From Haloprofundus salilacus (GTDB lineage Archaea; Halobacteriota; Halobacteria; Halobacteriales; Haloferacaceae), in the NCBI RefSeq assembly GCF_020150815.1, contig NZ_CP083723.1:992001-1056000 (forward strand): DNA of 64,000 nt, given 5' to 3'. This document shows positions 47,503 to 60,455 of the stretch, piece after piece; the first letter of the stretch is position 1, and each line of letters begins with the position of its first letter. The position numbers were made by a program, and so were the translations under genes. Below the pieces are notes generated by a model. It ran no database searches. It saw only the letters and a program-made list of their open reading frames with translations, and had not been told where the DNA came from.

Positions 47503-48621
47503 ATGCACCAGGAGAGTGACCCGGCGACCATCGAGTCGGCTATCGAGCGCTATCTCGACGGCGTCGAGGCGGGGAACTCCCGGAAGAACTACCGCTCGGT
47601 GCTAGCCGGGTGGGCCGCGTGGCTTCGCGACGAGGCAGACGTGGCTTCACTCAACGGCCTGACCGTCATGCACTGTCGGCGCTACGCCCGTCACCTGAAA
47701 GAACTTGTGCGCGAAAGTGAACTCCGCGCGAGCACGGCAAACACGTACTACGCCTACGTCCGGGCGTTTCTCGGGTTCTGCGTGGCCGACGAACTCCTCG
47801 ACGTGAATCCGGCGAAATCGGCGCGTGCGACCGACGAACTCCCCGAAGACCACGGCGACAGGGAACGTCAGTTCTGGCGCCGTAAACAGCGGAACGCTAT
47901 ACTCACTTACGTCGACCGCCGAGCCGAGGAGGCGCAAGAGACCGGCTCCGAGCGCGAGATACGGCGTGCGCTTCGCGATAGGGCGCTCGTCGCCCTGTTA
48001 GCACTTTCCGGCGTTCGCGGCGGTGAAGCGTTCGCCGCTGCCGCCGACGACAGGCGCTCGGGACTGACGTGGAACGACGTCGACACCGACGCCAACGCAG
48101 TTCGGGTGTTCGGCAAGTCCCGCGAGTACGAGTACGCGCAGTTGCCTGAACGCGCGAGTGCGGCGCTCGTCGACCACCGCGAGTACTGTAAACCCGCCGA
48201 CGCGTCGTGGCCGGTGTTTCCGACCGGTCACGGTCCGTCACTTCGGCAGGCTATCGAGATGCAACTCGGCGCGCGGGGGTGGACTGACGAGGAGATCGAC
48301 GCACGCTGCGAGAAAGCGCCGTTGTCGCATGTCGTCCGCGAGGAGCGGGTGACGCCGCCGTCGCTCACGACGAACGGCGCGCGGAGCGTGATGAAGCGTC
48401 TCTGCGCCGACGCGGACATCGACGTTCGCGGCGAGTACCTCAAACCGCACGGTGCGCGGCGGGGGCTGGGCCACGAACTGTACGCCAGCGGTCACGCCGA
48501 ACTCGCGCAGTCAGCGCTCAGGCACGCGAGTATCGAGACGACGCACGAGTCGTACTCCGACATCCGGGCGGCCGAAACCGCTCGACGGGTCGACCGGGTG
48601 TTGGAGCGCGACGGAGCGTGA
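47503..48621 (+). CDS. Tyrosine recombinase / integrase
   Basis: A 372-residue site-specific recombinase. The N-terminal SAM-like core-binding domain covers about residues 8-105. The catalytic domain has Arg172 in LSGVRGGE, Lys205 in FGKSREYEYA, His316 and Arg319 in KPHGARRGLGHELY, His341 in ALRHASIETT and nucleophile Tyr351 in HESYSDI, so the active site is complete. It resembles haloarchaeal XerC/D-like proteins found on chromosomes and in integrated elements. A TATTTACG box is 33 nt upstream. No tRNA, direct repeat or excisionase is seen beside it, so no att site can be proposed. Confidence 0.92.
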   Translation: MHQESDPATIESAIERYLDGVEAGNSRKNYRSVLAGWAAWLRDEADVASLNGLTVMHCRRYARHLKELVRESELRASTANTYYAYVRAFLGFCVADELLDVNPAKSARATDELPEDHGDRERQFWRRKQRNAILTYVDRRAEEAQETGSEREIRRALRDRALVALLALSGVRGGEAFAAAADDRRSGLTWNDVDTDANAVRVFGKSREYEYAQLPERASAALVDHREYCKPADASWPVFPTGHGPSLRQAIEMQLGARGWTDEEIDARCEKAPLSHVVREERVTPPSLTTNGARSVMKRLCADADIDVRGEYLKPHGARRGLGHELYASGHAELAQSALRHASIETTHESYSDIRAAETARRVDRVLERDGA

Positions 48622-52568: not shown

Positions 52569-52659
52569 TTACAATTTTTACAACTTTTACAAATTTTAGA
52601 GCCACCACGCGACTGAGACGACTCGGCAGGATTTCTTAAAGAAAGTGGTTTTTACAAAT
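52569..52659. repeat. TTTACAA iterons upstream of the parA-like gene
   Basis: TTACAA occurs at 52569, 52578 and 52587 with an exact 9-bp period (TTTACAAnT units), and TTTACAAAT again at 52651-52659. Iterons of this kind upstream of a ParA operon are the usual centromere (parC/parS) or operator layout of type Ib systems. The same 9-mer TTTACAAAT recurs at 59862. Confidence 0.6.
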
Positions 52660-52783
52660 TCTGGAAATTCCAAAGCGGGTGGACAGTCAGGTGCGCGTGG
52701 ATACTGTTAAGCCACGTCGGAGAGACGTGAGCGACGATGACACGGTCGACACTTGGTACGCGGTGTTCGAATTGGAGACTGTC

Positions 52784-52794
52784 TACAAATTGTA
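52784..52794. promoter_or_regulatory. Palindrome TACAA-A-TTGTA at the parA promoter
   Basis: Perfect 5-bp arms around one A, directly before or overlapping the likely TATA element (ttgtaaaatg), whose distance to the GTG at 52829 is about 30 nt. A protein bound here would block TBP/TFB, so autoregulation is plausible. Confidence 0.5.
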
Positions 52795-52828: not shown

Positions 52829-53707
52829 GTGAGTCGTGCGGTCAGCGTCTCGCTGCAGAAAGGCGGCGTCGGCAAGACGACTGTCGCGATCAACCTCGCG
52901 GACGCGCTCGCTGCGCGGGGCAACGACGTACTGCTCGTCGATTTGGACCAGCAGGGGAACGCAACGGAGGGCGTCGGTCTCAAGGAATGTTACGAAGCAG
53001 AGAGTCCGCACATCGGCAATGTCCTCACCGAGGACGACCCCGTCGCCGTCGACGCGGTGATCCGCGAGCGCGAGGGGTTCGACGTCGTTCCGGCGCACGT
53101 CGACCTCGACGGGGCCGAGGACCGAGTTCGAAACTCGACGTTCGGGGTGCTGTGGGTCCGCCGTCGCATCGTCGAACCGTTGCTCGGCGAGCGCTACGAC
53201 TACGTCGTCATCGACTCACCGCCGAGTCTCGGGCCGCTCTCGGACGCGGCGCTCATCGGGTCGGGTAACGTCATCGTTCCGCTGCTGATGAGTGAACCGA
53301 GCGTCAGCGGGTTCGAGCGGATGTGGGAGCAGCAGATCGTTCCGATTCGCCAGGAGGTTGACCTCGAACTGCTCGCCATCGTGCCGAACGACCTTAGCGG
53401 TAACAACGAGGAGAAGCGCATCATCCGCGACCTCGAATCCTCATCGTTCGCCGAGTACCTCCCCGGGTTCGCCCGCAGCACGGAGTTTGACGACGACGAT
53501 TCACCCGGTCCCGGTCTCCGTCGCCGCATCGCGTTCCGGCGCTCGTGGCGCGACGGCAAGACGCTGCGCGAGTACGAACCGGACAACGACATGGTCGCGC
53601 GCCTCAACGAACTCGCCCACGTCGTCGAAGCGGGAACGGTCGACGTCGGCGCCGACAGTGACGCCGACAGGAGCGAGGAGAACGAAGAGGTGACGGCCAG
53701 TGCCTGA
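52829..53707 (+). CDS. ParA/SegA-type partition ATPase
   Basis: A 292-residue Walker-type ATPase with the deviant Walker A KGGVGKTT (residues 11-18), the A' motif LLVDLDQQGNAT, Walker B YVVIDSPPSLGPLSDAAL and a Lys/Asn-containing later segment NDLSGNNEEKRIIRDL. It starts almost at the P-loop, so it lacks the N-terminal HTH of type Ia ParA and is like type Ib ParA and archaeal SegA. GTG 52829 is used; the only upstream ATG is followed by a stop after one codon. The next gene overlaps it by 8 nt. Upstream iterons complete a partition cassette. Confidence 0.92.
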   Translation: MSRAVSVSLQKGGVGKTTVAINLADALAARGNDVLLVDLDQQGNATEGVGLKECYEAESPHIGNVLTEDDPVAVDAVIREREGFDVVPAHVDLDGAEDRVRNSTFGVLWVRRRIVEPLLGERYDYVVIDSPPSLGPLSDAALIGSGNVIVPLLMSEPSVSGFERMWEQQIVPIRQEVDLELLAIVPNDLSGNNEEKRIIRDLESSSFAEYLPGFARSTEFDDDDSPGPGLRRRIAFRRSWRDGKTLREYEPDNDMVARLNELAHVVEAGTVDVGADSDADRSEENEEVTASA

Positions 53708-54101
53708 CGGCAACCGTTTCGCGGGGTTGAGCGACGCGCTCGGCGACGAGGAAACGGCCGAAGAAGCACAGAGAACGGAATCGCCTGAGGGTGCGGACGA
53801 CGAGACAATCAGCAGCGAAACGATGGACGATGAAACGCTCGACGAGGAATCATCGGCATCGACGCCCGAGGAGGGCGGCCCGGCGTTCTCCTTCGAGGAG
53901 ACGACCCCGAAGAGCGTCTACGTCCGCGACCAGACGCTCGACGCGCTCGAAGACCTCGAGTTCGAGGTGGAGGTCGCGCTTCGGCGCGAGCACGGCGTCC
54001 GCGACGTGACCGGCCGGGAGTTTCACGACGCCTTGGTGCGCGTCGCGGCCGAGCACGCCGACGACATCGCCGCACTGGTCGTCGAGACGCGCGAGGAGTA
54101 G
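53700..54101 (+). CDS. ParA partner protein, predicted DNA-binding (SegB/ParB-like)
   Basis: A 133-residue protein starting at GTG 53700 inside the parA stop region. Residues 1-70 are acidic and probably disordered (EETAEEAQRTESPEGADDE...); residues 71-133 form a compact domain, PKSVYVRDQTLDALEDLEFEVEVALRREHGVRDVTGREFHDALVRVAAEHADDIAAL. The strand-helix-helix pattern (SVYVRDQTLDAL ... GREFHDALVRVA) is that of ribbon-helix-helix proteins with a longer turn. Position and size fit the centromere-binding partner of a type Ib/SegAB system. No family name can be given with confidence. Confidence 0.75.
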   Translation: MPDGNRFAGLSDALGDEETAEEAQRTESPEGADDETISSETMDDETLDEESSASTPEEGGPAFSFEETTPKSVYVRDQTLDALEDLEFEVEVALRREHGVRDVTGREFHDALVRVAAEHADDIAALVVETREE

Positions 54102-54237: not shown

Positions 54238-54759
54238 ATGGCCACAGAAACACAATCCCTGCAGACGCTTCGAGACCTGTTCGAGTACGAACTCGGCTGT
54301 ATGTACTACGTGGAGAACCAACTCGTCGACGCGCTCGACGAACTCGCGATGCAGACGCCGAACGAGAACGTCAGCCAGGGCTTCGCCGACCACCGCGACG
54401 AGACCCGACAGCAGGTCGAACGGCTCGAACGCGTGTTCGACGCCATCGACCGCGAACCATTCGAGCACGAGGTGTACGCGCTCGACGGCATGCTCCAGGA
54501 CAAACGTAACTTCGACGAGATGGTCGGAGAAGACGAACTCCGCAACGTCCATTATCTCGGCGCCGGAATGAAGACCGAGCGGTTCGAGATAACGGGCTAC
54601 GAGAGCCTCCAGATGCTCGCTGACCGGCTGGATATGGGTCGCGAGGTGACCGAGCCGCTGGAGCAGAACCTCGACGAAGAGCAGCGAACGCTGGACGAAC
54701 TCCAGACGATGGCGACCGGGTCGAAACTCAAGGAACTGTTCCAGAAGCTCACCGGGTGA
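54238..54759 (+). CDS. DUF892 (YciE/YciF-like) ferritin-fold protein
   Basis: A 173-residue all-helical protein: TLRDLFEYELGCMYYVENQLVDALDELAMQTPNENVSQGFADHRDETRQQVERLERVFDAI, typical of DUF892 with Glu and His residues that could form a di-iron site (E-x2-Y-x2-E, HRDET). The family is stress-induced in bacteria, function unclear. A TTTATCGG box about 40 nt upstream and a separate gap of 136 bp indicate its own promoter rather than co-transcription with the partition genes. Confidence 0.88.
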   Translation: MATETQSLQTLRDLFEYELGCMYYVENQLVDALDELAMQTPNENVSQGFADHRDETRQQVERLERVFDAIDREPFEHEVYALDGMLQDKRNFDEMVGEDELRNVHYLGAGMKTERFEITGYESLQMLADRLDMGREVTEPLEQNLDEEQRTLDELQTMATGSKLKELFQKLTG

Positions 54760-59521: not shown

Positions 59522-59740
59522 GTGGCGCAGATCGAAATCACGCTTCCGAACGACAAGCAAGCACAGTTCGAGCGTTTCGCCGAGGAGGAGTTTCTCAACG
59601 AAGAGCGAGCGGTAGAGGAACTGCTCACCGCCGGTCTCGACGCCTACAGAGATGTCGCCGACCGAGAGGAGACCGAAGTCGAGAGAAGCCCGTTCGCCGC
59701 CGGCGCCGAAGAAGAGTACGGCCGACGCGGGGAACTTTAA
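59522..59740 (+). CDS. Small ribbon-helix-helix-like protein (DUF7120 type)
   Basis: A 72-residue protein starting at GTG 59522: AQIEITLPNDKQAQFERFAEEEFLNEERAVEELLTAGLDAYRDVADREETEVERSP. The N-terminal strand and two helices with E-x-A-V-E-E-L-L match CopG/RHH-like haloarchaeal DUF7120 proteins, which I recall as uncharacterised. The tail is acidic and Gly-rich. A hairpin (59795-59810) and TTTACAA repeats follow directly, so this RHH protein may act on those sites. Confidence 0.78.
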   Translation: MAQIEITLPNDKQAQFERFAEEEFLNEERAVEELLTAGLDAYRDVADREETEVERSPFAAGAEEEYGRRGEL

Positions 59741-59810: not shown

Positions 59811-59816
59811 GACACT

Positions 59817-59870
59817 TTGTAAACGGTGTGCAATTTCTACAAACTGTAGGAAGCGTACAAGTTTACAAAT
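59817..59870. repeat. TTTACAA-type sites shared with the parA locus
   Basis: TTTGTAAA (inverted copy) at 59817-59824, palindrome CTACA-AAC-TGTAG at 59837-59849, TACAAG at 59856 and TTTACAAAT at 59862-59870. The last is identical to the 9-mers upstream of the parA-like gene at 52586 and 52651, and the palindrome resembles TACAA-A-TTGTA at 52784. Confidence 0.55.
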
Positions 59871-59968
59871 CTCTACTCACGTCCCGCCAAGGAGTGGTAT
59901 CTGCGTCGTCGAGTGGGCGAACGTGCCCGCTCGGAACGCGAGTTCGGCACTGATTGAGGGACAGCAGT

Positions 59969-60031
59969 CACTGTCGGAAGCGACCGAGAGTTACCGACAG
60001 TTCCGACACGTTCTGACAGTCACCGACAGTC
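59969..60031. repeat. CCGACAGT repeats
   Basis: CACTGTCGG (inverted) at 59969, CCGACAGT at 59994, CTGACAGT at 60013 and CCGACAGT at 60023, in a gene-free stretch beside the TTTACAA-type sites. The whole gap 59741-60068 thus consists of a hairpin and two sets of repeats and has no reading frame of its own. Confidence 0.5.
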
Positions 60032-60068: not shown

Positions 60069-60455
60069 TCAGCGGCGGTCGAACCGTTCGAGCGCCGTCA
60101 GGAGACCGACGTACTCGGCGCGGCGGGTCGCCAGCGCGGCCAGTCGGTCGTCGAGGTGGTTGAGCGCGTCGTGGACGTCGTCGACGACGGCGTCGGGGTC
60201 GCGTTCGCCGACCTCGAACTGGACCCGTCGAACGTGTTTGCAGCGAACGTCGCGGTACTGGAAGTCGGGGCAGGTGCAGGCCGGTTCGCGCGTGTCGACA
60301 ACGTACTCGTCGCCGCTCTGCGTGCGGACCCGGTAGAAGTCGGGGGCTTCTCTGTCGACGAACATCGTCTCGGTGAGCGCGCGCACGTCGCGTTCGTCGA
60401 CGGAGGTCGTGGTCGATTCGGTTATCGCGTCGGGAGTATCTGATGTCGAGGTCAT
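60069..60455 (-). CDS. SWIM zinc-finger protein
   Basis: A 128-residue protein with a SWIM finger CTCPDFQYRDVRCKH (CxCx9CxH pattern, about residues 64-78) between an acidic N-terminal part (ESTTTSVDERDVRALTETMFVDREAPDFYRVRTQSGDEYVVDTREPA) and a C-terminal helix bundle (VVDDVHDALNHLDDRLAALATRRAEYVGLLTALERF). SWIM domains bind DNA or protein. ATG 60455 is used; upstream extension is basic and not protein-like. It lies next to the repeat-rich gap. Confidence 0.85.
   Translation of the reverse strand: MTSTSDTPDAITESTTTSVDERDVRALTETMFVDREAPDFYRVRTQSGDEYVVDTREPACTCPDFQYRDVRCKHVRRVQFEVGERDPDAVVDDVHDALNHLDDRLAALATRRAEYVGLLTALERFDRR

Follow-up and report, generated by a model that had tools for sequence, protein, structure and literature searches.

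A 9-bp-phased palindrome shared by the parA upstream region and an intergenic gap of Haloprofundus salilacus as a probable parS-like centromere element

Introduction

Bacterial chromosomal ParABS systems combine an HTH-type ParB protein with parS sites near oriC. Haloprofundus salilacus likewise has a number of sites grouped in the chromosomal region near an origin, but the partner in the bacterial systems is ParB, whereas no ParB/CTPase domain was found in the partner protein described here. To our knowledge, centromeres of such a kind have rarely been described in haloarchaea. In the open literature, by a search that was not exhaustive, no paper on the sites of haloarchaeal ParA partners was found, the nearest system being SegAB of Saccharolobus/Sulfolobus (Kabli et al. 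2025, PMC12284271); that paper does not contain the word 'haloarchaea'.

SegAB resembles the locus studied here in that a ParA-type ATPase gene overlaps a small downstream DNA-binding gene, and in that palindromic sites are present before the operon and elsewhere on the chromosome, with higher density near the operon; SegAB sites are also denser near an origin (PMC12284271). The SegAB motif is TCTAGA-S-TCTAGA (TCTAGASTCTAGA type), as opposed to TACAAWTTGTA in 9-bp phase here, and 83.7% of the SegAB sites are intragenic, whereas those analyzed here lie between genes (PMC12284271). No SegB chain was present among the PDB hits of the partner's profile up to an E-value of 10.

Another comparable system is delta/omega/parS of pSM19035, which also has (PMC9499535) several multi-repeat sites per replicon built from short phased repeats, and a small ParA without N-terminal HTH together with a small partner (type Ib partition). 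Its sites overlap promoters, and here phased repeats are located upstream of parA (52570-52598, 52784-52794), where a site may serve autorepression as in pSM19035 (PMC9499535). The repeats of pSM19035 are 7-bp non-palindromic WATCACW units in arrays of 7-10 at six sites on the plasmid (PMC9499535), whereas the units here are 9-bp palindromes, which form arrays of 2-4 and occur both on a chromosome and on megaplasmids.

In this study, we analyzed a gap between two convergent genes for which a sequence-only reading had offered a regulon, a two-site centromere or an origin/replicon remnant as explanations. The centromere is the best supported of these options, with the correction that further sites exist beyond the two, and we conclude that the gap is probably a member of a multi-site, parS-like centromere of a ParA/partner system that would also be autoregulatory. 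With a defined set of sites, a gene pair and laboratory-tractable Haloferax relatives, the question is directly testable.

Materials and methods

The source genome (G000; 3.73 Mb) consists of two contigs, the 3.24-Mb chromosome C1 and the 489-kb C2. The window, that is, the whole stretch of 64,000 nucleotides that was analyzed, corresponds to G000:C1:992001-1056000, and positions without prefix refer to it. Within the genus, five genomes were compared, G000 and the four congeners G001-G004. For scoring, a 13-bp matrix was trained on 52 parA-upstream sites from 25 loci outside the genus, 7 of which gave none; sequences deviating from the consensus of this genus at no more than one position served as training sites, so that the seed is not independent. 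Genomes were scanned with a 20-base tandem pattern allowing up to 3 mismatches. This pattern is its own reverse complement, each match was counted once, and the reversed pattern was used as control. A loosened palindrome, TA[ACG]A-N3-T[CGT]TA, was counted at 28 named loci.

Results and discussion

The gap and its palindromes

The gap comprises 331 bp and is flanked by two genes that converge on it with their 3' ends. It extends from the stop codon of an RHH-like gene (59738-59740, plus strand) to that of a SWIM gene on the minus strand (60069-60071). The former (59522..59740, plus strand) encodes 72 amino acids with a weak match to DUF7120 (Pfam 25.9 bits, cut-off 27), the latter (60069..60455, minus strand) a SWIM zinc-finger protein (Pfam SWIM, 25.4 bits). 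All listed frames entering the gap are short or overlap better genes. Scanning the window for Rfam families and tRNAs turned up a single tRNA-Glu.

The sequence-only reading had named the 9-mer TTTACAAAT as the unit common to the gap and the region upstream of parA. Its positions (52586, 52651 and 59862) were reproduced, and with up to one mismatch it occurs 7 times in the window vs 0.74 expected, a count reached by 0 of 100 shuffles; TACAAANTGTA with up to two mismatches occurs 27 times vs 5.3 expected (0 of 100 shuffles). The two loci, 7 kb apart, do have one site type in common, but this shared element is the palindrome TACAAWTTGTA repeated in 9-bp phase. The genome has seven copies of TTTACAAAT; around the four that lie beyond the window, no tandem site was found (score at most 4.1 within 3 kb), and TTTACAAAT was rejected as the unit. 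The copy in the gap (59862..59870, plus strand) is probably not a site, because it is out of phase with the palindrome and has a matrix score of -0.7. The palindrome CTACAAACTGTAG stands at 59837-59849 as described, and the inverted TTTGTAAA is present as well, at 59816-59823, one base off the reported 59817.

Across the 64-kb window, high tandem scores are obtained solely in two places, before parA at 52569-52783 (maximum 35.7) and at 59828 within the gap (26.9), the best value elsewhere being -4.9. The cluster in the gap, TGCAATTTC TACAAACTG TA (59829..59848, unstranded), is accompanied by a weak in-phase unit at 59811. Upstream of parA, the highest scores of the window (35.6 and 35.7) belong to three 9-bp-phased units, TACAATTTT TACAACTTT TACAAATTT TA (52570..52598, unstranded), followed by a weaker tandem site, TACAAATTCTGGAAATTCCA (52653..52672, unstranded; score 20.5), which matches the tandem pattern with 2 mismatches. 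Finally, a perfect palindrome-like site, TACAAATTGTA (52784..52794, unstranded), precedes the parA start codon by 35-45 bp. Each of the five genomes has a site at this position, reading exactly TACAAATTGTA in three of them, TACAATTTGTA in G002 and TACAAATTCTG in G003, and it is likely both operator and site. The minus strand of G002:C2 has the 9-bp-step string TACAAATTG TACAAATTT TAGAAATTG TA.

When the gap was compared between relatives, as the sequence-only reading had suggested, the tandem site turned out to be kept, whereas the gap as a whole could not be aligned between species. When 15-20 kb were scored in each of the four congeners and the region upstream of parA was set aside, the top-scoring tandem site was always located in this gap, with scores of 25.4 (G001), 23.3 (G003), 9.7 (G002) and 3.4 (G004). 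The sites are thus degenerate in two of the five genomes, which counts against the centromere reading. Could such sites be chance AT-rich patches in non-coding DNA? Intergenic DNA is generally AT-richer than genes, the gap is unalignable between species and single palindromes occur elsewhere. Nevertheless, this is highly improbable: the reversed control gave 0 matches in every one of the five Haloprofundus genomes and on five megaplasmids, the gap ranks first outside parA in the window and in 4/4 congeners, and among 2000 dinucleotide shuffles the gap score was reached by none for the window, G001, G003 and G002 and by 2 for G004.

The isolated single palindromes also count against the centromere reading. 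With up to one mismatch, TACAAATTGTA was found 24 times in G000 on both strands (control 8), in part on C2, and one exact copy is located at C1:2286419. A lone palindrome, TACGATTTGTACAAATCGTA, was seen in G003 on another contig (C11:18978-19006).

The CCGACAGT-type copies that had been reported next to the palindromes are present, too (59970..60030, unstranded; two exact copies at 59994 and 60023 and a reversed one at 59970, with near-copies around). With up to one mismatch, CCGACAGT occurs 117 times in the window vs 96 expected; none of 100 shuffles reached 117, the largest count being 116. The local cluster of 8 matches in the 331-bp gap is real, since its density is equalled by only 2 of 1274 overlapping tiles. 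Each of the four congeneric gaps contains 1 match vs 8 here, and CCGACAGT was rejected as part of the conserved system; judged from these sequences, the copies are particular to H. salilacus and stand outside that system. By eye, the gap of G002 (L012:1905-1990) has a different repeat of its own, of the CGGCGAGTCACGAACCG type, and species-specific repeats such as CCGACAGT may arise beside the site.

The RHH-like neighbor, which the sequence-only reading had linked to the gap, was rejected as its partner. Among 119 genomes, close orthologues (E at most 1e-12) turned up in 5, each of which belongs to this genus. In G001 (L011:1719-3145), the site still stands beside the SWIM gene, but the RHH gene is 1.3 kb away from it, with other sequence in between, and none of 13 paralogue loci in the genus has a tandem site (best score 0.1). 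Because of this separation and the site-free paralogue loci, the site does not go with the RHH gene. Scans of the genome contigs with the RHH protein confirmed nothing, and a search of plasmids gave no match.

The parA gene and its partner

The parA gene (52829..53707, plus strand) encodes a 292-aa ParA-family ATPase (Pfam AAA_31, E 2e-35, match beginning at residue 3) with the deviant Walker A motif KGGVGKT at residues 11-17. It belongs to the short type without N-terminal DNA-binding (HTH) domain and is 88-92% identical in all four congeners. The gene of its partner, a protein of 133 aa that is proposed to bind the sites, follows at 53700..54101 (plus strand) and overlaps parA by 8 nt; the same offset was observed in 22 of the 27 loci in which a partner frame was found, out of 30 scanned. 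Of 170 genomes from the family, 83 encode relatives of the partner (E at most 1e-5).

Alignment of 13 partner sequences revealed that both the N-terminus (MPDxNRFAGL) and a C-terminal domain with invariant K71, Y74, R76 and T79 are conserved, whereas the acidic linker between them varies in length. AlphaFold2 predicted this domain with pLDDT 94 as a strand-like KSVYVR followed by helices of 22, 13 and 13 residues. As a guess from this model, it could be an RHH domain, the order strand-helix-helix being that of an RHH monomer. Neither Foldseek nor VIA-align gave a meaningful structural match for the partner or its domain, sequence and profile searches of the PDB gave no relative, and Pfam/NCBIfam contained no family for it. 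For 23 partner sequences, Pfam/NCBIfam searches up to E 1 detected no ParB-type (HTH/CTPase) domain, and PHROGs returned a weak match to a family of unknown function and nothing else.

According to the centromere reading, the partner would bind the 9-bp-phased TACAAWTTGTA palindromes as adjacent dimers via its conserved C-terminal domain and would contact and stimulate ParA via its conserved N-terminus. We infer that nucleoid-bound ParA would move or position the origin-proximal part of the chromosome, and that the copy of the site before parA would also autorepress the operon.

Association of the palindrome with the gene pair

When up to two mismatches were allowed, 26 out of 30 partner loci showed palindrome hits. 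Almost all of these hits are upstream of parA, where 'upstream' was judged by position, minus-strand loci being left unoriented; clustered hits step by 9 bp. At one locus (L075), two hits lie downstream of the partner gene. The loosened palindrome occurs 84 times in the 28 kb upstream of parA (3.00 per kb) vs 12 times in the remaining 482 kb (0.025 per kb), and its density at these 28 loci is therefore 120-fold higher in the kilobase preceding parA than in the rest of the sequence. Among other ParA paralogue loci, 0 of 6 had a tandem score above 2 (best 1.8), and at one of these paralogue loci, L035, a lone site scores 16.8 but no tandem is present. The palindrome and its 9-bp phase are tied to the parA/partner pair across genera.

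All four hit-free partner loci come from the genus Halolamina (g3), and the loosened palindrome was not found upstream of parA in five Halolamina/Haloparvum loci (L108, L111, L113, L115, L116). These pairs probably use another site sequence; that Halolamina keeps the gene pair without the motif counts against the centromere reading. At L119-L123, which represent Salinibaculum and four Natrialbaceae-type genera, the palindromes before parA take the form TACACATTCTA or TACACTGTGTA, and these sequence forms suggest a drift of binding specificity.

Distribution of the sites over chromosomes

The tandem pattern matched 14, 4, 8, 12 and 4 times in the five genomes of the genus. All 14 matches of G000 lie on C1 and none on C2, and 13 of them fall into six clusters within 670,041-1,051,848, the remaining one being at 54,757. 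Five of six remote clusters are at most 375 kb from parA (binomial P 0.0016, with the distance of 375 kb picked after seeing the data). Several chromosomal loci are conserved: besides the gap and the site before parA, the site before an XPB-like gene at 670 kb is common to the genus, having, by eye, the same flank in G001, G003 and G004 and a similar one in G002. Three remote sites of G000 lie inside open frames of 116-485 aa, two of which overlap better genes on the opposite strand, and these frames were taken as spurious. Each chromosomal site has two or three good units. pSM19035 needs four contiguous repeats (PMC9499535), and the lower number here counts against the centromere reading.

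In 35 other genomes, 2-17 matches were found in the 21 with a near partner, 0-1 in four of Halolamina and 0-2 in ten without partner. The reversed control gave 0-2 matches, and in G049 the 2 matches equal the control of 2. For five of the 21 partner-bearing genomes, whose matches were listed in full, 60 of 65 matches were on the parA contig (G111 12/14, G096 12/12, G090 15/17, G066 6/7, G120 15/15).

Megaplasmids and the question of a regulon

The gene pair is also present on complete megaplasmids of Haloferax and Salinigranum. On five of these, the tandem pattern matched 12, 2, 10, 13 and 17 times at spread-out positions (control 0), for example in clusters at 148, 162, 252, 272 and 324 kb of the 328-kb plasmid of Haloferax larsenii. 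On the Salinigranum megaplasmid, neither of the 2 matches is beside parA, where a looser site alone scores, and this counts against the centromere reading. Nine of the 15 remote megaplasmid clusters were examined, and each of them is intergenic with respect to the annotated genes, which have mixed functions, in a plasmid gene table that is incomplete; three of the nine are between convergent gene ends. Two site-bearing gaps, VOC/MFS and USP/IclR, are common to two species.

These positions bear on the possibility that the palindromes are solely operators of the partner or of a different regulator, for parA and for the genes at the remote sites, without any role in segregation. The checked sites are intergenic, that of parA at an operator-like distance of 35-45 bp from the start codon, and remote sites in G000 precede genes for an XPB-like helicase and CBS-domain proteins; such positions before gene starts count against the centromere reading. 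Moreover, RHH partition proteins elsewhere double as repressors (PMC9499535). We still regard a pure regulon as rather unlikely. The sites remain on the parA replicon although Haloprofundus and Haloferax have different genes next to them, and no XPB-like gene was found on the five site-bearing megaplasmids among 25 of 46 records listed. At the gap and at three of the nine megaplasmid clusters, which lie between convergent ends, no promoter is evident on which an operator could act. A role in segregation is favored because the sites follow the replicon and not particular genes, and because of these convergent positions.

Replication origin and possible plasmid ancestry

An origin in the gap itself, one of the options of the sequence-only reading, was rejected, since the nearest orc1 gene (matching Cdc6_C) is about 22 kb farther on and has different repeats of its own. 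The orc1 frame (G000:C1:1073348-1074649) is accompanied by inverted TTCACCGGAAACGTGGTGTG copies at 1074558-1075797 (L131:17348-19797), and together they are predicted to form a replication origin, its repeats being about 30 kb from parA and about 23 kb beyond the gap. The layout is the same in G004 (L133:9843-12482), the repeats having been checked in these two genomes, and the Orc of G001 is 96.5% identical to the one near parA. The distance from parA to orc1 is 28 kb in G001 and 25 kb in G004; the contigs of G002 and G003 end before.

On four Haloferax megaplasmids (285-505 kb), close relatives of the gene pair adjoin orc1, which could mean that the parA arc is an integrated megaplasmid and the partition system its relic. 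A tyrosine recombinase of the phage integrase family, encoded 4 kb upstream of parA (47503-48618, plus strand), would fit this, too. However, the Orc proteins beside parA on three Haloferax megaplasmids have their nearest G000 relative in the C2 Orc (L088, G000:C2:4038; 49-50% identity) and not in the Orc near parA (35%), and the far sites of G000 are found at genes such as XPB with DUF790 and an EF-1A-like GTPase. In addition, parA and its sites are kept across the genus, which argues against a relic, and we consider this origin of the arc improbable.

Beyond the probable assignment of the gap to a centromere, we suggest tentatively, as a possibility somewhat short of probable, that the polyploid main chromosome of Haloprofundus is segregated by a distributed, origin-proximal centromere of six clusters over about 380 kb, to which a ParA partner from a family not yet described would bind. 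On megaplasmids of related genera, this machinery would operate as well, the system moving between chromosome and megaplasmid, and its specificity would drift by genus, from TACAAWTTGTA in Haloferax and relatives to TACACWTTSTA-like forms in Natrialbaceae and another sequence in Halolamina.

A second, diverged ParA/partner pair, with 37% identity of the partner, was observed on plasmid pMHR1-1 of Haloprofundus sp. MHR1 (L130).
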